This document shows positions 6,341 through 16,667 of a DNA stretch of 64,000 nt, in pieces. Below the pieces are notes generated by a model. The model saw only the letters and a list, made by a program, of their open reading frames with translations. It made no database searches and was not told the origin of the DNA. Where the stretch lies: NCBI RefSeq assembly GCF_028898945.1, contig NZ_CP118607.1, positions 2,528,001 through 2,592,000 of the forward strand, given 5' to 3'. The first letter of the stretch is position 1; every line of letters starts with the position of its first letter. The DNA is from Pseudomonas sp. PSKL.D1 (lineage in GTDB: Bacteria; Pseudomonadota; Gammaproteobacteria; Pseudomonadales; Pseudomonadaceae). The translations under genes were made by a program, and so were the position numbers.

Positions 6341-7639
6341 ATGCTGAAGATCCTGGTGCGCCTGTACCTGGTGATCATCGTTGCCTATGCCGGTGCGTTG
6401 CTGTTGATCCCCGACACCATCGTCGGCCTGTTCCATGACCGCTTCATGGCCTACAACCTGGACCAGGCCAAGGGTGTGCAAACCCTGATCGTGCGCCAGT
6501 TCAGGCAAACCCCGCGCGAGCAGTGGCCGGCGGTGCAGCAGGACCTGGCCAAGGCGTTCGCGCCGCTCGAACTCACCTTGCAGCGCATCGACCAGGCTGG
6601 CTTGAGTACGGCCGAGCGCGCCCGCCTGGAGCACGGTTTGTTCGCGGTGCGGATTGCCGAGTGGGGCTACTACGAAACAGTGCTGGCGCCGCTGGACGAT
6701 CAATGGTTGGTCAGCCTGCACGCACCGCCGGACCCGTTCGACATCAACGTGCTGTCGTGGGGCGTGACGGTGCTGATCGGCGCCGCCATGCTCGGCTGCC
6801 TGCTGCTGTGGGTGTGGCCGCACTGGCGCGACCTGGAGCGCCTGAAGGAAACCGCCCGGCGCCTGGGCCAAGGCCAGATGGCCGAGCGCACGCACATTTC
6901 GCCGCATTCTAACATCGGCGAGCTGGCGGGGGTGTTCGACACCATGGCCAGCGACCTGGAGCGCCACGTCAACCAGCAGCGCGAACTGCTCAATGCGGTG
7001 TCCCACGAGCTGCGCACGCCGCTCACCCGCCTGGACTTCGGCCTGGTGCTGCTGTTTGACGAGGTGCCGCCCACCAGCCGCAAACGCCTGCTGGAACTGG
7101 TCGGCCATGTGCGCGAACTGGACGAACTGGTGCTCGAGTTGCTGTCCTACAGCCGGTTGTACAATGCTGACCAGGCGCGTGAGCGGGTGGAAGTGTCGTT
7201 GCTGGAGCTGGTCGACAGCGTGCTGGGTGGCTTCGCCGAAGAACTCGACAGCCGCGGCATCCAGTGGGAGGTACGCGCCGAAGAAGGCCTGCCGCGCTTT
7301 GTACTCGACCCGCGGCTGACTGCCCGGGCGGTGCAGAACCTGGTGCGCAACGCCATGCGCTATTGCGACCAGAGCCTGCTGCTGCGTTTGCGTCTGGAAG
7401 CGGACGGCGCGTGCCTGCTGACCGTCGAGGATGACGGCATCGGCATTCCGGCCGAAGAGCGGGAGCGGATCTTCCAGCCGTTCTACCGCCTGGACCGCAG
7501 CCGCGACCGCAGCACCGGCGGCTTTGGACTGGGCCTGGCGATCAGCCGGCGGGCGATCGAGGGGCAGGGCGGCACCCTGACGGTGGCGCAGTCGGCCTTG
7601 GGCGGCGCGCAGTTCAGGATTCGCTTGCCAGCCGGCTAG
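6341..7639 (+). CDS. Sensor histidine kinase (RstB-like architecture)
   Basis: 432 residues. A transmembrane helix at the N terminus (LVIIVAYAGALLLIP) and a second near residue 140-165 (VTVLIGAAMLGCLLLWVWP) frame a periplasmic sensor of about 110 residues. A HAMP linker follows, then a HisKA helix with His222 in AVSHELRTPLTRL. The ATPase domain has N (NLVRNAMRYC), G1 (DDGIGIP) and G2 (GFGLGLAIS) boxes. All catalytic motifs look intact. It should phosphorylate the regulator encoded immediately upstream. The inducing signal is unknown. Its last 26 bases overlap the 3' end of the diguanylate cyclase gene on the other strand. Confidence 0.93.
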   Translation: MLKILVRLYLVIIVAYAGALLLIPDTIVGLFHDRFMAYNLDQAKGVQTLIVRQFRQTPREQWPAVQQDLAKAFAPLELTLQRIDQAGLSTAERARLEHGLFAVRIAEWGYYETVLAPLDDQWLVSLHAPPDPFDINVLSWGVTVLIGAAMLGCLLLWVWPHWRDLERLKETARRLGQGQMAERTHISPHSNIGELAGVFDTMASDLERHVNQQRELLNAVSHELRTPLTRLDFGLVLLFDEVPPTSRKRLLELVGHVRELDELVLELLSYSRLYNADQARERVEVSLLELVDSVLGGFAEELDSRGIQWEVRAEEGLPRFVLDPRLTARAVQNLVRNAMRYCDQSLLLRLRLEADGACLLTVEDDGIGIPAEERERIFQPFYRLDRSRDRSTGGFGLGLAISRRAIEGQGGTLTVAQSALGGAQFRIRLPAG

Positions 7640-8705
7640 ACCACAGCACGTAGCGGTCCTTGCCGGTGTGCTTGGCCTCGTACAGGGCCTGGTCGGCCTT
7701 GATCAGGGCCATGGTCAGGGTGTCGTCGTCGTTGATATGGGCCAGGCCGATACTGATGGTCACCGGGTGCTCGCCCGTGTCTTCGCGCACGCGCTGGCAC
7801 AGGTCGCTGACCTGCTGCTCGGCCGCGGGCTGGTCCAGGCCCTGAAAGATCACGGCGAACTCCTCGCCGCCCAGCCTGGCGAACTCCTGGCCGGCCATCG
7901 CTGCGCGGATGTGCACGGCTACACGCTTGAGCACTTCGTCACCAACGTCATGGCCAAAGCGGTCGTTGACCTTCTTGAAGTTGTCGATGTCGATCATCGC
8001 CAGGTATTGCCCGGGTGCGGCGGCCTTGAGTTGCCGCTCGGCCTTGAGCATGAACGAGCGGCGGTTGGGGATGTCGGTCAGCACGTCCACGTAGGCTTGT
8101 TCCAGCAGCATCTTGGACATGTAGTAGTTGTGCAGTTTGGTCTGGCGCAGGCGCAGGTAGCTGTAGATCACCAGGCCGCTGAGGAAGATTGCGTAGCTCA
8201 GCACCATGGCGGCTTCCAGGTCGTCCAGGTCGATATTGGTGTCGTAGAAAGGGTTGAGCATGGCCCAGGTGATGGCCATTGCGCAGAAGAACGACCAGCG
8301 CCGCACCGGCAGCACCGACACGCTGTACAGCACCGTGGAGGTGCCCAGCGCCAGCCATACCGGGCGCAGGGCAATGGGGATGCCTTCGATGACCAGGCGC
8401 ATGCCCAAGGTGATGACGGTGATGAACAGCAGGTTGAGCACATCGAAATGGTGGCTGTGCCGGGTGAAGCCCAACACCACGGTCAGGCTGCCCATCAAGG
8501 CCAGGAACAGGCCGGAAAGCCAGGTGAAGCCTTGGCCGCCGATGTAGCTGACGATCAGGTCGAAGACCAGCCACACCACAATGCTGACGCAGAAAATCAG
8601 CTGGCAAAAGCGGCGCGAGACGTCGAATTCGTGCTGGCGGAACTCGGCGCGCAGGGCGGCGGGGGCGACCTGTTGGCGGACGTGGTCTTCGATGGTTTTG
8701 AACAT
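7614..8705 (-). CDS. Membrane diguanylate cyclase (GGEEF)
   Basis: 363 residues. About six transmembrane helices (residues 30-190, for example LIFCVSIVVWLVFDLIVSYI) form an N-terminal sensor region. A C-terminal GGDEF domain follows, with ARLGGEEFAVIF near residue 276, the active variant of the signature. The inhibitory RxxD site expected just upstream is missing: residues -7 and -4 from the motif arginine are Met and Gln. The enzyme should make c-di-GMP without product inhibition at that site. It starts at 8705, where cgcaggagccctcg provides an AGGAG site; in-frame codons upstream lie in a REP and are rejected. It is the last gene of the wecB-nfrBA block, and the block contains a c-di-GMP receptor domain in NfrB. 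Confidence 0.92.
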   Translation of the reverse strand: MFKTIEDHVRQQVAPAALRAEFRQHEFDVSRRFCQLIFCVSIVVWLVFDLIVSYIGGQGFTWLSGLFLALMGSLTVVLGFTRHSHHFDVLNLLFITVITLGMRLVIEGIPIALRPVWLALGTSTVLYSVSVLPVRRWSFFCAMAITWAMLNPFYDTNIDLDDLEAAMVLSYAIFLSGLVIYSYLRLRQTKLHNYYMSKMLLEQAYVDVLTDIPNRRSFMLKAERQLKAAAPGQYLAMIDIDNFKKVNDRFGHDVGDEVLKRVAVHIRAAMAGQEFARLGGEEFAVIFQGLDQPAAEQQVSDLCQRVREDTGEHPVTISIGLAHINDDDTLTMALIKADQALYEAKHTGKDRYVLWSSRLASES

Positions 8706-8730
8706 CGAGGGCTCCTGCGATAAAGGCTTG

Positions 8731-8804
8731 GCCTGTGCTGGCCTCATCGCGGATGAATCCGCTCCTACAAGAGCGGATTCATCCGCGATGAGGCCGGCAC
8801 AGGC
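8731..8804. repeat. REP pair (34-base arms)
   Basis: gcctgtgctggcctcatcgc... (8731-8764) and its complement (8771-8804), with one mismatch and a six-base loop. It fills almost the whole gap between the DUF4434 gene and the cyclase gene. It could end or weaken transcription between them, or protect mRNA 3' ends. Confidence 0.9.
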
Positions 8805-8806
8805 AA

Positions 8807-9646
8807 TCAATTCAGGGGCAGCAACCCTCGTGCCCACGGCCGGTACCTCAGGGCAAACACTGCTTCCTCATGGCACCCGCCATGCAATGCCGGCGCCGCA
8901 GGCTCCGCCCGGAACGCTTGCCCCGGCGCGCTTACCTGCCGAAACGCCTCGCGTACCACCCCTACTTGGCAAGGCAGCGCCTGCTCATACCCTTGACGCA
9001 CCAGGGCCGGCAGCCGGCCGGTGCCGGCGCCATCCTGCCACCACACCTTCAGGCCCAGGCCTGCCAACTGTTCCAGCCACCCGGCATTGACCCGCGGAGC
9101 CAGCTTGCCGGCACTGAACGCACTGATGTGCAGCGGTTTGTCCAGCTGCCGGTTAAACGCCTGCAACTGGCTATACAGCGCCTGACGGCGGCTGGCATCG
9201 CGAAAATGATGGTCGTCCAGCTCCATGGGCAGGTACCAGCCAGCCACGGGTAACTGCCACCCCTCGCGCACCTTCTGGTACTGGCCGAGCGAACGGCCCA
9301 ATTGCGCCTTCCAGTAATTGCTCAGGCCATCGCTGTCGAGTTCGTCGATGCGGGTGTAGTAAGCCGGGTCCATGTACAACCCCAGCACCAGCTCCAGGCC
9401 CTGTGCGTGCGCTTGGCGCAGGCTGTTGGCCAGCCAGCCCTGGGCGCCGCCGAAGTCGCTGTCGCCGTAGGCGCTCCATTGCACGATCAGGGTTTTGCCG
9501 CCTTGTGCCACGGTCGCCCGCCATAGCTGTTGCCATTGGACGGGCGTCAGGGCCGCGTCGCGGTTGAGCGGTTGGTAGAACAGGCGCTGGTCCGCCAGGG
9601 CCGGCAGGCACAGGGCGAGCATGCAGATTGCCAGTAATTTACGCAT
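8807..9646 (-). CDS. DUF4434-type exported protein of the Nfr operon
   Basis: 279 residues with a signal peptide (MRKLLAICMLALCLPALA, cleavage before DQ). The sequence after it (RLFYQPLNRDA, GKTLIVQWSAYGDSDFGG, LVLGLYMDPAYY, VAGWYLPMELDDHHF, ALYSQLQAFNRQL) fits the DUF4434 family, which resembles TIM-barrel glycoside hydrolases. Candidate acidic residues are in YLPMELDD, but none is proven. It is encoded directly after nfrA: the ATG shares one base with the nfrA stop (TGATG), so translation is coupled. A periplasmic role in processing or exporting the Nfr glycan is an inference from this context. The C-terminal 30 residues run to 8807, next to a REP. Confidence 0.82.
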   Translation of the reverse strand: MRKLLAICMLALCLPALADQRLFYQPLNRDAALTPVQWQQLWRATVAQGGKTLIVQWSAYGDSDFGGAQGWLANSLRQAHAQGLELVLGLYMDPAYYTRIDELDSDGLSNYWKAQLGRSLGQYQKVREGWQLPVAGWYLPMELDDHHFRDASRRQALYSQLQAFNRQLDKPLHISAFSAGKLAPRVNAGWLEQLAGLGLKVWWQDGAGTGRLPALVRQGYEQALPCQVGVVREAFRQVSAPGQAFRAEPAAPALHGGCHEEAVFALRYRPWARGLLPLN

Positions 9647-12639
9647 CAGAAGCTCATCTCCGCGCCCACCAGCACGCCGTTGGCGCGCTCATACAGGTTG
9701 CCCCCCAGCGATTGCTGGTACTCGGCACGCACTTTCAGCGTGCCGCGGTAGGCGTTGTAACGGTCGTCGTCGAACCACCATTGCCAGCGCACGCCGATGC
9801 CGGCGCGGGCGTCCTGGCGCCAGTCGTTGCTTGGGTCCTGGCTGGAGAACTCGAGGAAGCCGTAAGGCATGAGGGTTTGCGGTGAGCTGCCCGGCAGCTT
9901 CCAGGCATGGCCTTGCTGGTAGCGCGATAACCACGCGTGGTCGCCGGCGCGGGTCCACCAGGCAGCGTCCAGGTACAAAAAACGCTCGTTCCAGTCGTCT
10001 TCGTCCACGCGCCAGTCGTTGCGCCAGTCGCCTTGGTCGAGGAACGAGGCGGTGGCCCGCAGCAACAGGTCGTTGCTCGATTCGGCGTGGCTGCGCAAGT
10101 CGCCCCAGTTGCTGCCGACCTTGCTTGGGTTAAGCAGCTCGCCCAGGCTCAGGCCGCTGTACTGGTCGTCGTCGATCTGGCGCTGGTGGTAAAGCTCGGC
10201 GTACAGGTTGAGGTTGGCCTGGCCAAGGGGTTTGTAACGCAGGCCCACGCCGGTGCCCATGCTTTGGGCGTACTCGTTGCGGCCCTGGCCGCCAAACAAT
10301 ACGCGGCCATACACCGAGAGGGTGCTGCCGTTGCGGCTGGGTTCTTCACCCAGGGCATGGTCCCACATGGCCAACTGCACGTTCTGCGATTGCGCCCGGC
10401 GGGTGGTGCCACTGCGCTCGCCGGTGTCGAGAAACTTGTCGTTGGTGGAGGTGCCGGCGGGCGACCAGGTGCTGGCCAGGGTGACGGTGTCGCGCCGCGC
10501 CAGCGCCTCGTGGGCGCGGCGCTGGCGGTATTTGCGTGCTTCCAGGCTGCCGTACTCGTCATCGCCGTCGACCAGGTTCTGCTCCACATCGAGCACGCGG
10601 CGCAGCTCGCGGCGGGCCGAGGCACTGTCTTCGGCCTCGTCGTAGCGCAGGGCGAGGGTTTCGCCCAGGCGGTAGTCTTCGGGGAAGTCGCGGGTGGCCT
10701 GTTGCAGGTAAGGGATCGACTGGCGGCGCTGGGCCTTGTCGGCTGAGCCGGCCAGGCGCGTGCCGTAGTCGGCGCGGTAGCGGGGCTGGTCGGGGGCCAG
10801 GCGTACGGCTTCGGCCAGCCAGGCGGTGCTTTGCGCCGTATCCCCGGCCAGTTGCGCGGTGCTGGACGCCGCATAGTAGTGGTCGGCACGCGGCTTGTGC
10901 GCCAGGGCCTGACGCTGCATGCCCAAGGCGGCCTGCAGGTCACCCTGTTCTTGCGCGATGGCCGCGCCCAGTGCCCAGTCGTCGGCGCTGGTGTGCGCCG
11001 CGGCGTCCCAGTAGCGCCGCGCGGCCTGGGCATCGCCGGCATTCAGCGCGCCGCGGGCGGCGGTCAGCCGGGCGTTGTCGGTCCAGGCGCTGGCGGGCAG
11101 GCTGCGCCAGATCGGCAGTGCGGCTTCGGAATCGCCAGCGGCTTCAAGGGCGTAGGCCAAAGGCAGGCGGTCGCCGGGGCCGCCCAGCCGCTCGGCGGCC
11201 TGGTAGTAGACCACGGCCTCGCCGGGCTGGTCGGGCATGGCGCAGCGGCCGAGTGCACGGTACTGGCCAGCTTCTACCGGCGTGGCCGGGATGGCCTGGC
11301 GCACGCTGTCGCACTGGCCCGCTTCGGCCAGCCGGCCCAGCAACTGGGCGCGGGTATCGGGGTCTACTTTCGGCACGAGGCTGAGTGCGCGCCGTGTGTC
11401 CAGCGGGCTGTCGGTGCGGGCGTAGAGGTTGCCCAGGCGCTGCAGCAGCGCGGGCGTCAGGCGCCCATTACGGCGGTCATAGGCCTGTTCCAGCAGCGTG
11501 CGGGCATGAGCGTGCTGGCCCTGTTGCACCAACAGGAAGGTGGCTTGCTCAAGGGCGGCCAGGTCACCGCTCTGGCGGTAGCGCTTTTCCCATTCGCTGG
11601 CAGTGCGCGGTTGCGGCGGTGGCGCCGGGTCGCCGTACAGGCGCTGCTTGAGGATGGCATGGGCGCGCGAGTCGGCCGTGGCCGGGCAGCCTTTGAACTG
11701 CTCGCGGGCGAGGTCCGGGTCGTGGCGCGACAGCCAGTCGACTGTTTCCAGGCAAGGGCGTTGCAGCGCGTTGCTCAGGCGCATGACCAGCGCAGCATCA
11801 TCCCCTTCACGGGCCAGTTCCCACAGTTGCTGGCGGTGCTCGGGTTGTTGCAGCTGCTCGGCGGGCAGGGCTTGCAGCCAGCGTTGGGCCTGCTGGTTGT
11901 GGCCCACGGCGATCGCCCGGTTGGCCATGGCCAGGCGGGCCTGATTGGCGGCTTGCGCCGAGGGGGCGCTGGGCAGCAGTGCGTTCAGGCCTTGTTCGTC
12001 GAGTTGCTGCACATAGGCGTTGGCCAGCCGCTGCCAATCCTGGGGCGGCAACTGGCCCTTGGCGGCCAGCGGTTGCAGTTGGTCGATGGTTTCTTTCCAG
12101 TTGCGCAGCTGTTCGGCGAAGTTGGCGCGGGCCAGGCGCAGCACTTGCCCGTCATCACGTGGCGGTAGCTGGCTGAGCCAGTCCAGCGCCTTGCCCGCAC
12201 CGCCGAACTTGGCCAGGCTCAGGCTGTAGGCTTGCCACAGGCGTACCCGCTGCATGCTGTCGGCACTGGCCAGCCAGCTTTCCACCACGCTGGCGGGTGG
12301 CGGGTCCTGTTCGATCCAGGTCAGGCGCAGCTCCAGCAGCGCGTTGGCGTGTTCCGGTCCGTCCTCCAGCTGTTCGGCCAGGGCTTGCGCTTCTTTGTAA
12401 CGGCGCTGGTGGGCCAGGGCTTCGACCAGCAGGGCGCGGGCCTCGTCATTGTTGGGCACGCGGCCCAGTACATGGCGGGTGAGGCGTTCCACCTCGGCCC
12501 AGTTGTCCTTTTTGGCTTCGCGGTAGCTGCGCTCCATGAACGGGTAGCTGGTAAAGCGCTGGAAGTCGGTCATGGGCGCGGCCAAGGCCGTGGAGCACAG
12601 CAGCAGGCCGGCGAGGCTGAAGGTAAAGCGCGGCGTCAT
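9646..12639 (-). CDS. nfrA: NfrA-like outer-membrane glycan secretion protein (TPR plus porin)
   Basis: 997 residues, close to E. coli NfrA. A signal peptide (FSLAGLLLCSTALAA) is followed by a long TPR-like helical region (residues about 25-720, full of A/L-rich repeats such as NDEARALLVEALAHQRRYKE). The C-terminal third (residues about 740-997) has alternating aromatic beta-strands and ends in NGVLVGAEMSF, a terminal Phe typical of outer-membrane barrels. The layout resembles BcsC and PgaA. In E. coli NfrA is the outer-membrane receptor for phage N4 and is thought to export the NfrB/WecB glycan. Start and stop overlap the neighbours (ATGA with nfrB, TGATG with the DUF4434 gene), so this is one transcript. 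Confidence 0.88.
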   Translation of the reverse strand: MTPRFTFSLAGLLLCSTALAAPMTDFQRFTSYPFMERSYREAKKDNWAEVERLTRHVLGRVPNNDEARALLVEALAHQRRYKEAQALAEQLEDGPEHANALLELRLTWIEQDPPPASVVESWLASADSMQRVRLWQAYSLSLAKFGGAGKALDWLSQLPPRDDGQVLRLARANFAEQLRNWKETIDQLQPLAAKGQLPPQDWQRLANAYVQQLDEQGLNALLPSAPSAQAANQARLAMANRAIAVGHNQQAQRWLQALPAEQLQQPEHRQQLWELAREGDDAALVMRLSNALQRPCLETVDWLSRHDPDLAREQFKGCPATADSRAHAILKQRLYGDPAPPPQPRTASEWEKRYRQSGDLAALEQATFLLVQQGQHAHARTLLEQAYDRRNGRLTPALLQRLGNLYARTDSPLDTRRALSLVPKVDPDTRAQLLGRLAEAGQCDSVRQAIPATPVEAGQYRALGRCAMPDQPGEAVVYYQAAERLGGPGDRLPLAYALEAAGDSEAALPIWRSLPASAWTDNARLTAARGALNAGDAQAARRYWDAAAHTSADDWALGAAIAQEQGDLQAALGMQRQALAHKPRADHYYAASSTAQLAGDTAQSTAWLAEAVRLAPDQPRYRADYGTRLAGSADKAQRRQSIPYLQQATRDFPEDYRLGETLALRYDEAEDSASARRELRRVLDVEQNLVDGDDEYGSLEARKYRQRRAHEALARRDTVTLASTWSPAGTSTNDKFLDTGERSGTTRRAQSQNVQLAMWDHALGEEPSRNGSTLSVYGRVLFGGQGRNEYAQSMGTGVGLRYKPLGQANLNLYAELYHQRQIDDDQYSGLSLGELLNPSKVGSNWGDLRSHAESSNDLLLRATASFLDQGDWRNDWRVDEDDWNERFLYLDAAWWTRAGDHAWLSRYQQGHAWKLPGSSPQTLMPYGFLEFSSQDPSNDWRQDARAGIGVRWQWWFDDDRYNAYRGTLKVRAEYQQSLGGNLYERANGVLVGAEMSF

Positions 12640-14810
12640 GCCACCTCCCGGGTCAGGTCAAGGGCGGCCTGCTGTTCGCTGGCCTGTTCGGCAAGGGCCT
12701 GTTGCAGCACGGCCTCGGTGATGATGCCGCGGGCGATCAGGTGTTCGCCCAGGCTTTGCGTCTCGGGGTCGAAGTCGATCAAGGCCTGGTTGAACAGGGT
12801 GACCGGCACCATGCCGCGCACCTGCAGCAGGGCACCAAGCATCACCTGGTGGGTGCTGACCTGTTCGATCAGCTCGGCGTTGTCCTGATGGCGCTCCAGC
12901 ACGGCGAGCATTTCGCCGGTTTCCGGTTTTTGCCAGGGGCTGGGGTAGTAGTAACGCAGGCCCAGCGTAACCCGGCCTTGGGGGGCGAGGCGGCAGCGTA
13001 CGGGGCGCTTGAGCTGGCGGCTGATCACACCGAGGGAAACCTGGCTTACCGGGCTTTCGCTGGCCAGGATCAGGGTGTCGCCCTCTTCGTCGACCGGCAG
13101 CACCCCATAGTGGGTGGCCAGGCGGCGTGGCAGCTTGGCGATCAGCTGTGGGTCGAGCTTGAACGGGTTCAGCGGTGCCCAGGGCAGGTCGAGCTGTTCG
13201 GCCAGGGTCTCTACCAGTTGCTCACTGGTCAGCCAGCCACGCAGCAGCAGTTCGCGGCCCAGACGGCGGCGTACCGGGCTGGTGATGGCCTGCTCCAGCT
13301 GGGCCTCGCTGATGTAGCCTTTTTCCACCAGGCGGTGGCCCAGCGGTGTGCGCGCCGCCGTGGCCAGGGCCGGGAATTCGTGGGTGGTCTTGTCCCACGC
13401 CACCCGGCGTGAGTCGCCCATTTCCATGACTTGGCGCAGGGCGCGCAGGTTGGCGAAGAAGTTGACGAAGTTGCTCCACATCATGCGCGGCGCCGACAAC
13501 AACCCTTCGCCAATGCCGTAGTAACGGGTAACGAACCAGCCGCGCTGGAACAGGCGGTTGACCAGCATCAGGCCGTTAAGCCACAGCAGCGTACTGAGCA
13601 GCGCGCTGTCGCCGAGGATCGACATGAACCGCCAGCTTTCCGGGGCAATTACCGTGACCAGCCAGATGGCCAGCAATACCAGCAGCAACAGGTTGACCAA
13701 AAAGCTCAGCAGATAGGCAAACAGCCCACGGCGGTCGCGCCAGAGGAAGTAATTGAGGGCACCGGTGCGGCTCCAGCCCAGGTTGCTGGTGCCCTGGAAC
13801 ACGATGCCGACGATCCACCGGGATTTTTGCCGGATGGCGTGCTGCCAGTCGCGCGGGAAGTGCTCGCGCACGCAAATCACCTGGGAGAACTCCCGGCTCA
13901 TGCCCGGGCGCCATTCGTGCTTGAGCGCCAGTGCCGGGTCGGTGACCGAGTAGCGGGCGAAGATGCACTTCATGCCTTTTTGCTTCAGGCGAAAGCCGAT
14001 GTCGTAGTCTTCGGTGAGGCTTTGCACGTCGAAGGCGATGCCGTCGCCGTCTTCCAGCAGGGCGCTGATGGCACGGCGGCTGAAGCAGGTGCCCACGCCG
14101 GCGCTGGGCACCTGGCCGGTCAACGCTTCACGCACGATCACGTCCTTGCCGTGGTTTTCGGCAAACTCGTCCACGTAGTGCCCGGCGGTGAAGCCTTTCC
14201 ATTCCGGTGCATAGGGGTACACCGGGATCTGGATCATGTCCTTGTTCGGCAGCAGGTAGTTGAACAGGCGCAGTTCCATGGGCGAGATCACGTCTTCGGC
14301 GTCATGCAGGATGAACCCGGCAAACTCGATGCGGGCATCGTCCTGAAAGCGCAGGATGGCGTCGATGATGTTGTTCAGGCAGTCGGCCTTGCTGGTGGGG
14401 CCGGGGCGGGCGCATACCACTTTGTGCACGTTGGGGTAGTGCAGGCATACAGCGTCGACGTCGGCCTGGGTTTGCGGGTCGTTGGGGTAGGTGCCGACGA
14501 AGATCTGGTAGTTTTCGTAGTCGATGGTCGAGGCGGCCAAGCGTGCCATCTCGCCGACCACGCCGACTTCGTTCCAGGCCGGGACCATGATAGCCAGGGG
14601 CTTTTCCGGCACCTCGAACAGGCGCTTTTCGTCTGCGCGCTCGTGCTTGTCGTAGATGCGAAAGCGCCGGATCAGCTTGCGGCTCCAGTAGCAGAGGTCG
14701 ATGAACAAATCGTCCAGGCCCAGCAGGAACATCAGGGTGGCAAGGACGATCGCCAGAATTTTCAGGCCGAACAGCACATAAGTCAGTACATCGATGAAGA
14801 CCAGGCTCAT
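12636..14810 (-). CDS. nfrB: NfrB-like glycosyltransferase with c-di-GMP-binding MshEN domain
   Basis: 724 residues. An N-terminal membrane helix (YVLFGLKILAIVLATLMFLL) precedes a GT2 catalytic domain: VPAWNEVGVV, SKADCLNNI, HDAEDVI and QKSRWIVGI, the Q-x-x-R-W motif of processive enzymes. More membrane helices lie near residues 365-420. The C-terminal 250 residues hold MshEN repeats. RRLGRELLLRGWLTSEQLVE, continuing TLAEQ (residues about 514-538), matches the RLGxxLxxxGxxxxxxLxxxLxxQ c-di-GMP motif, and a second such repeat starts SLGEHLIARGIIT. In E. coli NfrB is the c-di-GMP-activated enzyme that polymerises the ManNAc-based N4 receptor glycan. Here it lies between wecB, which supplies UDP-ManNAc, and nfrA, which exports. 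Confidence 0.9.
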   Translation of the reverse strand: MSLVFIDVLTYVLFGLKILAIVLATLMFLLGLDDLFIDLCYWSRKLIRRFRIYDKHERADEKRLFEVPEKPLAIMVPAWNEVGVVGEMARLAASTIDYENYQIFVGTYPNDPQTQADVDAVCLHYPNVHKVVCARPGPTSKADCLNNIIDAILRFQDDARIEFAGFILHDAEDVISPMELRLFNYLLPNKDMIQIPVYPYAPEWKGFTAGHYVDEFAENHGKDVIVREALTGQVPSAGVGTCFSRRAISALLEDGDGIAFDVQSLTEDYDIGFRLKQKGMKCIFARYSVTDPALALKHEWRPGMSREFSQVICVREHFPRDWQHAIRQKSRWIVGIVFQGTSNLGWSRTGALNYFLWRDRRGLFAYLLSFLVNLLLLVLLAIWLVTVIAPESWRFMSILGDSALLSTLLWLNGLMLVNRLFQRGWFVTRYYGIGEGLLSAPRMMWSNFVNFFANLRALRQVMEMGDSRRVAWDKTTHEFPALATAARTPLGHRLVEKGYISEAQLEQAITSPVRRRLGRELLLRGWLTSEQLVETLAEQLDLPWAPLNPFKLDPQLIAKLPRRLATHYGVLPVDEEGDTLILASESPVSQVSLGVISRQLKRPVRCRLAPQGRVTLGLRYYYPSPWQKPETGEMLAVLERHQDNAELIEQVSTHQVMLGALLQVRGMVPVTLFNQALIDFDPETQSLGEHLIARGIITEAVLQQALAEQASEQQAALDLTREVA

Positions 14811-15961
14811 GCGTCATCCTGTGGTTTGGCAGTGTCCTCGAACCATTGGCTCAGGCGTTCGGCGATGAGTTCGCTGGCGTGGCCGTCACCGAACGGGGTG
14901 AATACACGGGCCATTTTCTTGTAGGCCTCGGGGTCGTCGAGCAGTTGGCTGGTTTCCCTGACGATGCGTTCGGTCAGCGTGCCGACCAGCTTCACCGTGC
15001 CGCCTTCGAGCACCGAGGGGCGCTCGGTGACCTTGCGCAGCACCAGCACCGGTTTGCCCAGCGCCGGGGCTTCTTCCTGCACGCCACCGGAGTCGGTGAG
15101 GATGATGTGGGCACGGTTCATCAGCCACACGAAGTGCTGGTAGTCCTGTGGGGCCACCAGGTGAATGTTGTCGCGCCCGGACAGCAGCCCATACACCGAC
15201 TTTTGCACTTGCGGGTTGAGGTGCACGGGGTAGACGAACTGCACGTCGGGGTAGCGCAGGGCCAGCTCCGCCAGCGCCAGGCAAATGCGCTCGAAGCCTG
15301 CACCGAAGTTTTCCCGGCGGTGGCCGGTGATCAGCACCATGCGCTGGTCATCGCGCAGCGCGGCCAGCGGGGAGTCGACCGCGGGGTGCCATTGGGTGTC
15401 GGTGAGGTATTCACGCATCCACAACAAGGCGTCAATCACCGTGTTGCCGGTAACCTGGATGTGTTCCAGCGGCACGCCTTCACGCAGCAAGTTGTCGCGC
15501 GCTTTGGTGGTGGGGGCGAAATGCAGGTCGGCGATCACCCCGGTCAGGCGGCGGTTGGCTTCTTCGGGCCAGGGTTGTTGCAGGTTGCCAGTGCGTAACC
15601 CGGCCTCCACGTGGCCGATGGGGATGTGCCGGTGGAAGGCGGCCAGGGCGGCAACAAAACTGGTGGTGGTATCGCCGTGCACCAGTACCAGGTCGGGCTT
15701 GACCTGGTCGTAGGCTGTGTCGATTTTGTCCAGCAGGTCGCGGGCCAGGCCGTTCAGGGTCTGGTTCTGGGTCATTACCTTGAGGTCCTGATCGACGCTC
15801 AGGCCAAAGGCGGTCAGTACCTGCTCAAGCATTTCGCGGTGCTGGCCGGTGGAGCAGATATGCAGATCGATATCGGGCCACTCGCGCAAGACCCTGGCCA
15901 GAGGCGCCATCTTGATCGCTTCTGGGCGGGTACCGAATACCATCATGACCGTGTTAGCCAT
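14807..15961 (-). CDS. wecB: UDP-N-acetylglucosamine 2-epimerase (non-hydrolysing)
   Basis: 384 residues, full length. It starts MANTVMMVFGTRPEAIKMAP, the family hallmark, with VHGDTTTSFVAALAAF, HVEAGLRTGN and TDSGGVQEEAPALGKPVLVLR later. It interconverts UDP-GlcNAc and UDP-ManNAc in the cytoplasm. The ATG at 15961 is chosen for homology and a cgaggaacaagacg site. The open frame runs on upstream to 16270, but that part is unlike any WecB. Its stop overlaps the nfrB start (ATGA), so its product is probably meant for NfrB. E. coli also needs WecB for the NfrAB phage receptor, but there the gene is in the ECA cluster rather than in this operon. It is the first gene, so the operon promoter lies at 15962-16235. 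Confidence 0.95.
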   Translation of the reverse strand: MANTVMMVFGTRPEAIKMAPLARVLREWPDIDLHICSTGQHREMLEQVLTAFGLSVDQDLKVMTQNQTLNGLARDLLDKIDTAYDQVKPDLVLVHGDTTTSFVAALAAFHRHIPIGHVEAGLRTGNLQQPWPEEANRRLTGVIADLHFAPTTKARDNLLREGVPLEHIQVTGNTVIDALLWMREYLTDTQWHPAVDSPLAALRDDQRMVLITGHRRENFGAGFERICLALAELALRYPDVQFVYPVHLNPQVQKSVYGLLSGRDNIHLVAPQDYQHFVWLMNRAHIILTDSGGVQEEAPALGKPVLVLRKVTERPSVLEGGTVKLVGTLTERIVRETSQLLDDPEAYKKMARVFTPFGDGHASELIAERLSQWFEDTAKPQDDA

Positions 15962-16143
15962 CGTCTTGTTCCTCGTTCGATTCCCTGGACGAATGGATAC
16001 GCCTTGGCGCAGCTTGCAATGGATAGATACAAGCAGCCGTCGGCGGGGTTGTCCAATGCAGGGGGCAGGCAAGGTCGTAAGGGGCGCGTGGCGGCCCGAA
16101 GCCAGGGAATGGGTGGTGCGGAAACAGCGTAGCCTAGTTATTT

Positions 16144-16172
16144 TTGACTGAACGGTCAGGCAAAGATGTATT
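16144..16172 (+). promoter_or_regulatory. Candidate sigma-70 promoter of the PACE gene with overlapping inverted repeat
   Basis: ttgact (16144-16149), a 17-base spacer and tgtatt (16167-16172) match the -35 (5 of 6) and -10 (4 of 6) boxes. tgactgaacggtca (16145-16158) is an imperfect inverted repeat over the -35 that could be a repressor site. No regulator gene is adjacent. The 274-base gap between wecB and the PACE gene otherwise shows no gene. Confidence 0.45.
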
Positions 16173-16235
16173 TCATGCTTTTTCTTGCAGATTGCTTCTT
16201 GTATTTTTGTAGGTCGATTTGTCAGGGAGCTGAAC

Positions 16236-16667
16236 ATGCAAGGCAAGGCACGCAAGATCGTCCAGGCCATCTTCTACGAAGCCATCGCCGTGGCCTGCGT
16301 GGCACCGGCACTGGAGCTGGCATTCGGCGCGGGCATGGCCCAGTCCACGGTGTTGTCGATCCTGATGTCGGGCATCGCCATGAGCTGGAACATGGGCTAC
16401 AACTGGGTGTTCGAGCGCTGGGAAGCCCGCCAGCAAAAACGTGAACGCACCTTCATGCGGCGGCTGCTGCATGCGCTGGGCTTTGAGGGTGGGCTGGTGC
16501 TGATCCTGCTGCCGTTGGTGGCCTACTGGCTGGATGTCAGCCTGTGGGCGGCGCTGCTGACCAACCTGGCGCTGTTCGTGTTCTTCTTCGTTTACGCGTT
16601 CGTGTTCCAGTGGGGCTTCGACAAGGTGTTCGACGTGCCGCTGTCGGCGCAGCAAGCCAAGTGTTGA
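16236..16667 (+). CDS. PACE-family (AceI-like) multidrug efflux protein
   Basis: 143 residues with four transmembrane helices in two bacterial-transmembrane-pair repeats. Repeat 1 is IFYEAIAVACVAPALELAFG, including the membrane Glu important in AceI. Repeat 2 starts GGLVLILLPLVAYWLDV. Between them is NMGYNWVFERWE, the usual loop signature. PACE proteins export cationic biocides such as chlorhexidine, or short-chain diamines, by proton exchange. The ATG at 16236 is chosen because gggagctgaac gives a good ribosome-binding site and the extra upstream residues (from 16185) are not family-like. It is divergent from the wecB-nfr operon. Confidence 0.9.
   Translation: MQGKARKIVQAIFYEAIAVACVAPALELAFGAGMAQSTVLSILMSGIAMSWNMGYNWVFERWEARQQKRERTFMRRLLHALGFEGGLVLILLPLVAYWLDVSLWAALLTNLALFVFFFVYAFVFQWGFDKVFDVPLSAQQAKC

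Follow-up and report, generated by a model that had tools for sequence, protein, structure and literature searches.

Nfr systems and the locus in Pseudomonas sp. PSKL.D1

In Escherichia coli K-12, the genes nfrB, nfrA and ybcH of the Nfr (N4 glycan receptor, NGR) exopolysaccharide system are located between cusS and envY, and the cyclase DgcJ is reported to carry a periplasmic dCache domain (PMC8669472). In organisms without another WecB, such as P. soli SJ10, wecB stands directly with nfrB, and the nfr operon of most pseudomonads comes with a GGDEF protein, whose gene may be the fourth of a full nfrBA-ybcH operon and have a specific role (PMC8669469; this paper, PMC8669472 and PMC6467409 are cited here from excerpts). 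We analyzed a 64,000-nucleotide stretch of Pseudomonas sp. PSKL.D1 (hereafter the window), in which wecB, nfrB, nfrA, ybcH and a diguanylate cyclase gene lie in this order on the minus strand (Table 1). This cluster represents, with a probability of about 80%, the Pseudomonas form of the Nfr system, working by the mechanism proposed below.

The window shares with E. coli the NfrB, NfrA and YbcH families, their gene order and the catalytic and cyclic diguanylate (c-di-GMP)-binding residues, and differs in having linked wecB and cyclase genes. The DUF4434 gene is not new to the window cluster, since the nfr operon of E. coli already has ybcH. No difference of kind was seen from the Pseudomonas nfr loci of Junkermeier and Hengge (2021, PMC8669469) as excerpted, which have a linked wecB and a cyclase gene immediately 3' of nfrBA-ybcH, and P. 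soli LMG 27941 displayed the same five genes as the window. The gene arrangement is thus already known, the core of the finding having been published in 2021. A preliminary description of the window had proposed an Nfr-type, c-di-GMP-gated system with its own wecB and cyclase; families, motifs and context agree with this proposal, but the arrangement is not new. In the open-licence literature, no Pseudomonas study of nfr function was found, and PMC6467409, in the part cited here, merely cites E. coli NfrA and NfrB. The window holds a single-locus form of a phage-receptor glycan pathway that is scattered in E. coli, and single deletions at this one place could be used to test how substrate is supplied, how c-di-GMP gates synthesis and whether chains are trimmed.

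All five genes had family-model support, four of them above a specific curated cut-off. WecB scored 472 bits against TIGR00236 (cut-off 210), NfrB 1265 bits against NF008411 (1170), NfrA 1332 bits against NF007302 (1223; NfrA_C and TPR_19 domains were also matched) and YbcH 398 bits against NF007404 (344), while the GGDEF domain of the cyclase scored 122 bits against PF00990 (23.8). Open reading frames (ORFs) and family matches bore out the order, strand and coordinates of the five genes in the preliminary description, as well as the overlaps it had claimed among the first four, which amounted to 4 bp (wecB/nfrB), 4 bp (nfrB/nfrA) and 1 bp (nfrA/ybcH). Among relatives with an alignment beginning at residue 1, the same overlaps were found in 66 of 68, 34 of 35 and 39 of 43 cases, respectively.

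Table 1. Features of the nfr locus, in positions of the window.
Feature	Position	Strand	Family or basis
wecB, non-hydrolysing UDP-GlcNAc 2-epimerase, 384 aa	14807..15961	-	TIGR00236
nfrB, membrane synthase of glycosyltransferase family 2 (GT2) with an MshEN domain (c-di-GMP-binding) at the C-terminus, 724 aa	12636..14810	-	NF008411, MshEN
nfrA, predicted exporter with tetratricopeptide repeats (TPR) and C-terminal barrel, 997 aa	9646..12639	-	NF007302, NfrA_C, TPR_19
ybcH (DUF4434), TIM-barrel protein (model) with signal-like N-terminus, 279 aa	8807..9646	-	
Repetitive extragenic palindromic (REP)-type palindrome between ybcH and cyclase gene, 34-nt arms and 6-nt loop	8731..8804	.	
Predicted membrane diguanylate cyclase, GGEEF, 363 aa	7614..8705	-	PF00990
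Conserved promoter-like element TTGGACAAC-N11-CTGCTTGTATCTA, 5' of wecB	16024..16056	-	alignment

Conserved residues and proposed mechanism

NfrB of the window was 51% identical to E. coli NfrB. Residues D170, D268, W332, G491 and G518 (numbering of NfrB in the window) were invariant in 81 aligned sequences (the window and 80 loci), and the E. coli catalytic residues D169, D267, Q326, R329 and W330 (Q326xxR329W330) and MshEN residues L490, G491, L518 and G519 were likewise identical in all 81. Substitutions of D169, D267, W330 and G491 in E. coli NfrB blocked N4 infection (PMC8669469, PMC8669472). The RLGxxLxxxG motif that had been described as intact was indeed present at residues 516 to 525 (RLGRELLLRG), the first half-motif carrying PLG instead of RLG, and Protein Data Bank (PDB) matches of the MshEN region were MshE and PilF-type c-di-GMP domains. 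With the residues important in E. coli retained, we infer that NfrB would be gated by c-di-GMP through its MshEN domain. The GT2 and MshEN residues of NfrB, the TPR and C-terminal barrel region of NfrA and the linked WecB place the cluster, at the level of sequence, among Nfr (NGR) systems.

In the proposed mechanism, WecB would convert UDP-N-acetylglucosamine (UDP-GlcNAc) to UDP-N-acetylmannosamine (UDP-ManNAc), c-di-GMP bound to the MshEN domain would let NfrB polymerize UDP-ManNAc across the inner membrane, and NfrA would take the chain through the outer membrane. Periplasmic YbcH, with its conserved glutamate pair, probably trims or releases the chain as a glycosidase, and the six-helix GGEEF cyclase, without the usual product-inhibition site, would raise c-di-GMP near NfrB as DgcJ does in E. 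coli; this local activation by the adjacent cyclase is proposed by analogy with E. coli. The explanation rests on gene content, motifs, conservation, the association of the cluster with a supply by wecB and a fold model. Worth pursuing further are the possible hydrolase role of YbcH, the piecemeal states of the cluster, and the upstream element, which is unique in this genome.

Distribution across Pseudomonas

The survey covered 199 genomes of the genus, in which NfrB matches were accepted at E≤1e-100, and the best 80 of 174 named loci, a selection in which close relatives are therefore over-represented. NfrB matches were obtained in 56 of the 199 genomes and fell into two clades: clade I, which includes this system, in 30 genomes (76 to 100% NfrB identity), and clade II in 27 genomes (39 to 44%), one genome (G025) harboring both. 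A ybcH match was found in all 30 clade I genomes. In 24 of them wecB lay immediately 5', while each of the other six had, elsewhere, a WecB match that scored 527 bits or more. When WecB matches, which reached down to about 214 bits, were counted from 450 bits upwards, only G025 among the 24 wecB-linked genomes had another WecB, at its second nfr-like locus. Among the 80 named loci, wecB was intact in 67, damaged in two and absent in 11. Two of these loci (L007 and L020), titled Pantoea sp., displayed a Pseudomonas-type locus with 93 to 94% NfrB identity and the same flanks, and are probably misnamed.

Partial states were observed at a site identified as the same by ilvA (four of four), the kinase pair (three of four) and the gene of a proteobacterial antimicrobial compound efflux (PACE) transporter (two of four). 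The cyclase gene stood alone in G193 (L089), wecB and the cyclase gene were found in G089 (L087) and wecB alone in G015 (L088), while G007 (L090) had ybcH, the second half of nfrA and a two-piece remnant of nfrB (residues 536 to 656). The cluster thus occurs piecemeal, and the cyclase can exist without the glycan genes.

YbcH as a candidate glycoside hydrolase

Retaining glycoside hydrolases of clan A are TIM barrels with glutamates on strands 4 and 7. The YbcH model was a TIM barrel in which two invariant residues, E142 and E233, lay on strand 134 to 144 (strand 4) and strand 229 to 233 (strand 7), respectively. This model suggests that YbcH is probably a retaining glycoside hydrolase rather than a scaffold, and provides a specific enzymatic hypothesis for a protein regarded until now as a putative scaffold. 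The alternative proposed for E. coli, a scaffold without enzyme activity, would make the glutamate pair structural; it appears the less probable of the two, but keeps an appreciable share. No sequence relative of YbcH was found in the PDB (best E 0.084), and Foldseek returned mixed TIM barrels (hydrolases, aldolases and reductases), with a query-based template modelling score (TMq) of at most 0.52 among the 50 matches listed. The term DUF4434 was not found in the open-licence literature searched.

The diguanylate cyclase gene and its link to the operon

The cyclase gene likely starts at the ATG at 8705, with AGGAG upstream. A 407-aa ORF with a GTG start was rejected, as its start falls inside ybcH and the ATG behind AGGAG is better. 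The ATG start leaves a 101-bp gap after ybcH in this genome, so that the two genes are not overlap-coupled here, and this gap contains the inverted repeat of Table 1. The REP half-repeat had 309 matches in the genome (146 + 163, at most three mismatches), while the reversed control had none.

The GGEEF motif was invariant in 68 aligned sequences and has the GG(D/E)EF form of the active site expected of an active diguanylate cyclase. The product-inhibition site (RxxD) was found in none of the 67 locus sequences at the I-site position. The AlphaFold2 model (predicted local distance difference test 82, predicted template modelling score 0.51) displayed six membrane helices and a further helix that runs on into the GGDEF domain, in contrast with the dCache domain of E. 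coli DgcJ, and no periplasmic domain was seen in it. Orthology to DgcJ was rejected on the score against NF040885 (78.5 bits, cut-off 500) and the lack of a periplasmic dCache domain in the model. The top Foldseek match, covering nearly the whole model, was the P. aeruginosa membrane diguanylate cyclase ImcA (8wcn); superposition was poor (template modelling score 0.40, root-mean-square deviation 12.6, 23% identity) and no orthology is claimed.

The membrane domain of the cyclase was found in 27 of the 30 clade I genomes. In 26 of these it followed ybcH on one contig, split into two pieces in G162, and in G170 it was on another contig. Among 79 named loci (L023, whose contig ends in ybcH, was left out), the gene was intact downstream of ybcH in 67, a remnant in one and absent in 11, so that the cyclase is not missing from most relatives; the preliminary description had named such an absence as refuting its reading. 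Its aligned start fell inside ybcH by 17 bp in 19 loci and by 23 bp in one, and tight coupling is therefore common elsewhere in the genus.

These overlapping starts, together with the intact gene in most loci, speak against a separate role for the neighbouring cyclase, in which case NfrB would respond to c-di-GMP from the general pool or from a different cyclase of the genome. This alternative is unlikely, although the cyclase is missing from several nfr lineages, with at least eight state changes on the NfrB tree (three for wecB), and stands alone or with wecB only at the ilvA-kinase site in G193 and G089; its gene is also preceded by the REP gap, and GGDEF frames in the genome number 34 in all (35 matches), its own included. 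A scan of 7500 to 16300 for sigma-70-like promoters, little informative in Pseudomonas, found none (1.1 expected); the lack of one before the cyclase gene also speaks against a separate unit, although wecB likewise had none in front of it. No terminator-like site was found at the REP gap, a search that is likewise little informative in Pseudomonas.

Several points weigh against an Nfr pathway that includes all five genes. The REP gap may set expression of the cyclase apart from that of the operon, and the cyclase was either missing or reduced to a remnant in 12 of the 79 named loci. Ten of the 199 genomes carried it but no clade I NfrB; six of these were examined, and in three (L092, L096 and L097) a cyclase of the same subfamily adjoined, away from nfr, an operon that from its protein starts is presumably of the resistance-nodulation-division (RND)-like type. 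Because the wecB pattern reflects few events (three changes), the six wecB-unlinked genomes are not independent, and gene linkage does not prove a single pathway. The earlier term "self-contained" is too strong in view of the state changes of the cyclase, its presence in the ten genomes without this NfrB and the 34 GGDEF frames.

Predicted glycan composition and clade II loci

The window WecB, the sole WecB match of its genome among the matches listed (E≤1e-20), is expected to make UDP-ManNAc. The best WecC match of this genome, at 163 bits, fell short of the cut-off of 459, and thus no competing use of UDP-ManNAc of the enterobacterial common antigen type was seen. By analogy with E. coli, the product would be a ManNAc polymer; a mixed or modified glycan instead of a ManNAc homopolymer is improbable: related clade II loci with extra acetyltransferase-like genes speak for it, but the window operon holds one synthase and one sugar-supply gene, with no modifying gene seen.

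The clade II operon of L084 (1637 to 12402) encoded WecB, a BcsB-like protein, an NfrB-like protein with MshEN, NfrA-like, AlgF-like and AlgX-like proteins and a DUF4434 protein, and L085 and L086 harbored further clade II nfr-like operons in Pseudomonas. In all 27 clade II genomes, wecB and the nfrB-like gene shared a strand, with wecB 2.4 to 2.8 kb upstream. Outside the genus, Achromobacter nfr clusters are reported with homologues of BcsB and of an O-acetyltransferase (PMC8669472). The excerpted Achromobacter and Simplicispira clusters (PMC8669472, PMC8669469) share the NfrB-type core, with wecB linked in Achromobacter, and carry BcsB-like and/or acetyltransferase genes as in clade II loci, whereas the window operon has none.

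Upstream element and phages

Upstream of the operon, the window and ten relatives (11 sequences) aligned on ATTGGACAACC-N-CTGCTTGTATCTA. The element occurred as a single copy in this genome (at most three mismatches) and is probably the promoter or operator of the operon, as judged from the alignment. A regular expression for the element matched 42 times in 1.96 Mb of collected locus sequence, being found 5' of wecB in 30 of the 67 wecB-containing loci and 5' of nfrB in all 11 loci without wecB. In the P. fluorescens group, this expression proved too restrictive: of the 37 wecB-containing loci that it missed, 14 were inspected, and most of these had a related form.

Phage records with a match (E≤1e-20) to the N4 protein gp65, annotated as tail sheath and receptor-binding protein, numbered 56, and 12 were titled Pseudomonas phages. 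Four matched most of the length of gp65, with an identity of 54% over the full length in inbricus, 44% over 83% in Arace01 and 35% over 73% in both PspYZU01 and Ppu-503; the remaining Pseudomonas phage records matched 17 to 27%. Clade II NfrB relatives included proteins named P. syringae and P. viridiflava. By analogy with N4, the Pseudomonas Nfr glycan may serve as a phage receptor, a role for which phages of Pseudomonas that carry gp65-like proteins could be test reagents. A tentative extension, which we hold somewhat short of even odds, is that YbcH, as a periplasmic retaining hydrolase, would set chain length or release chains from the export complex, making this a complete make-export-trim operon, and that Nfr-type glycans would be the receptor for gp65-bearing Pseudomonas phages.

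Genomic context

PADLOC gave no defence-system match for the cyclase, YbcH or NfrB. On one side of the cluster lay ilvA and the gene of a PACE transporter; on the other lay a convergent RstAB-like two-component pair, which scored below the RstA and RstB cut-offs. The histidine kinase gene (6341 to 7639, plus strand) and the cyclase gene (minus strand) overlapped tail to tail by 26 bp at 7614 to 7639.

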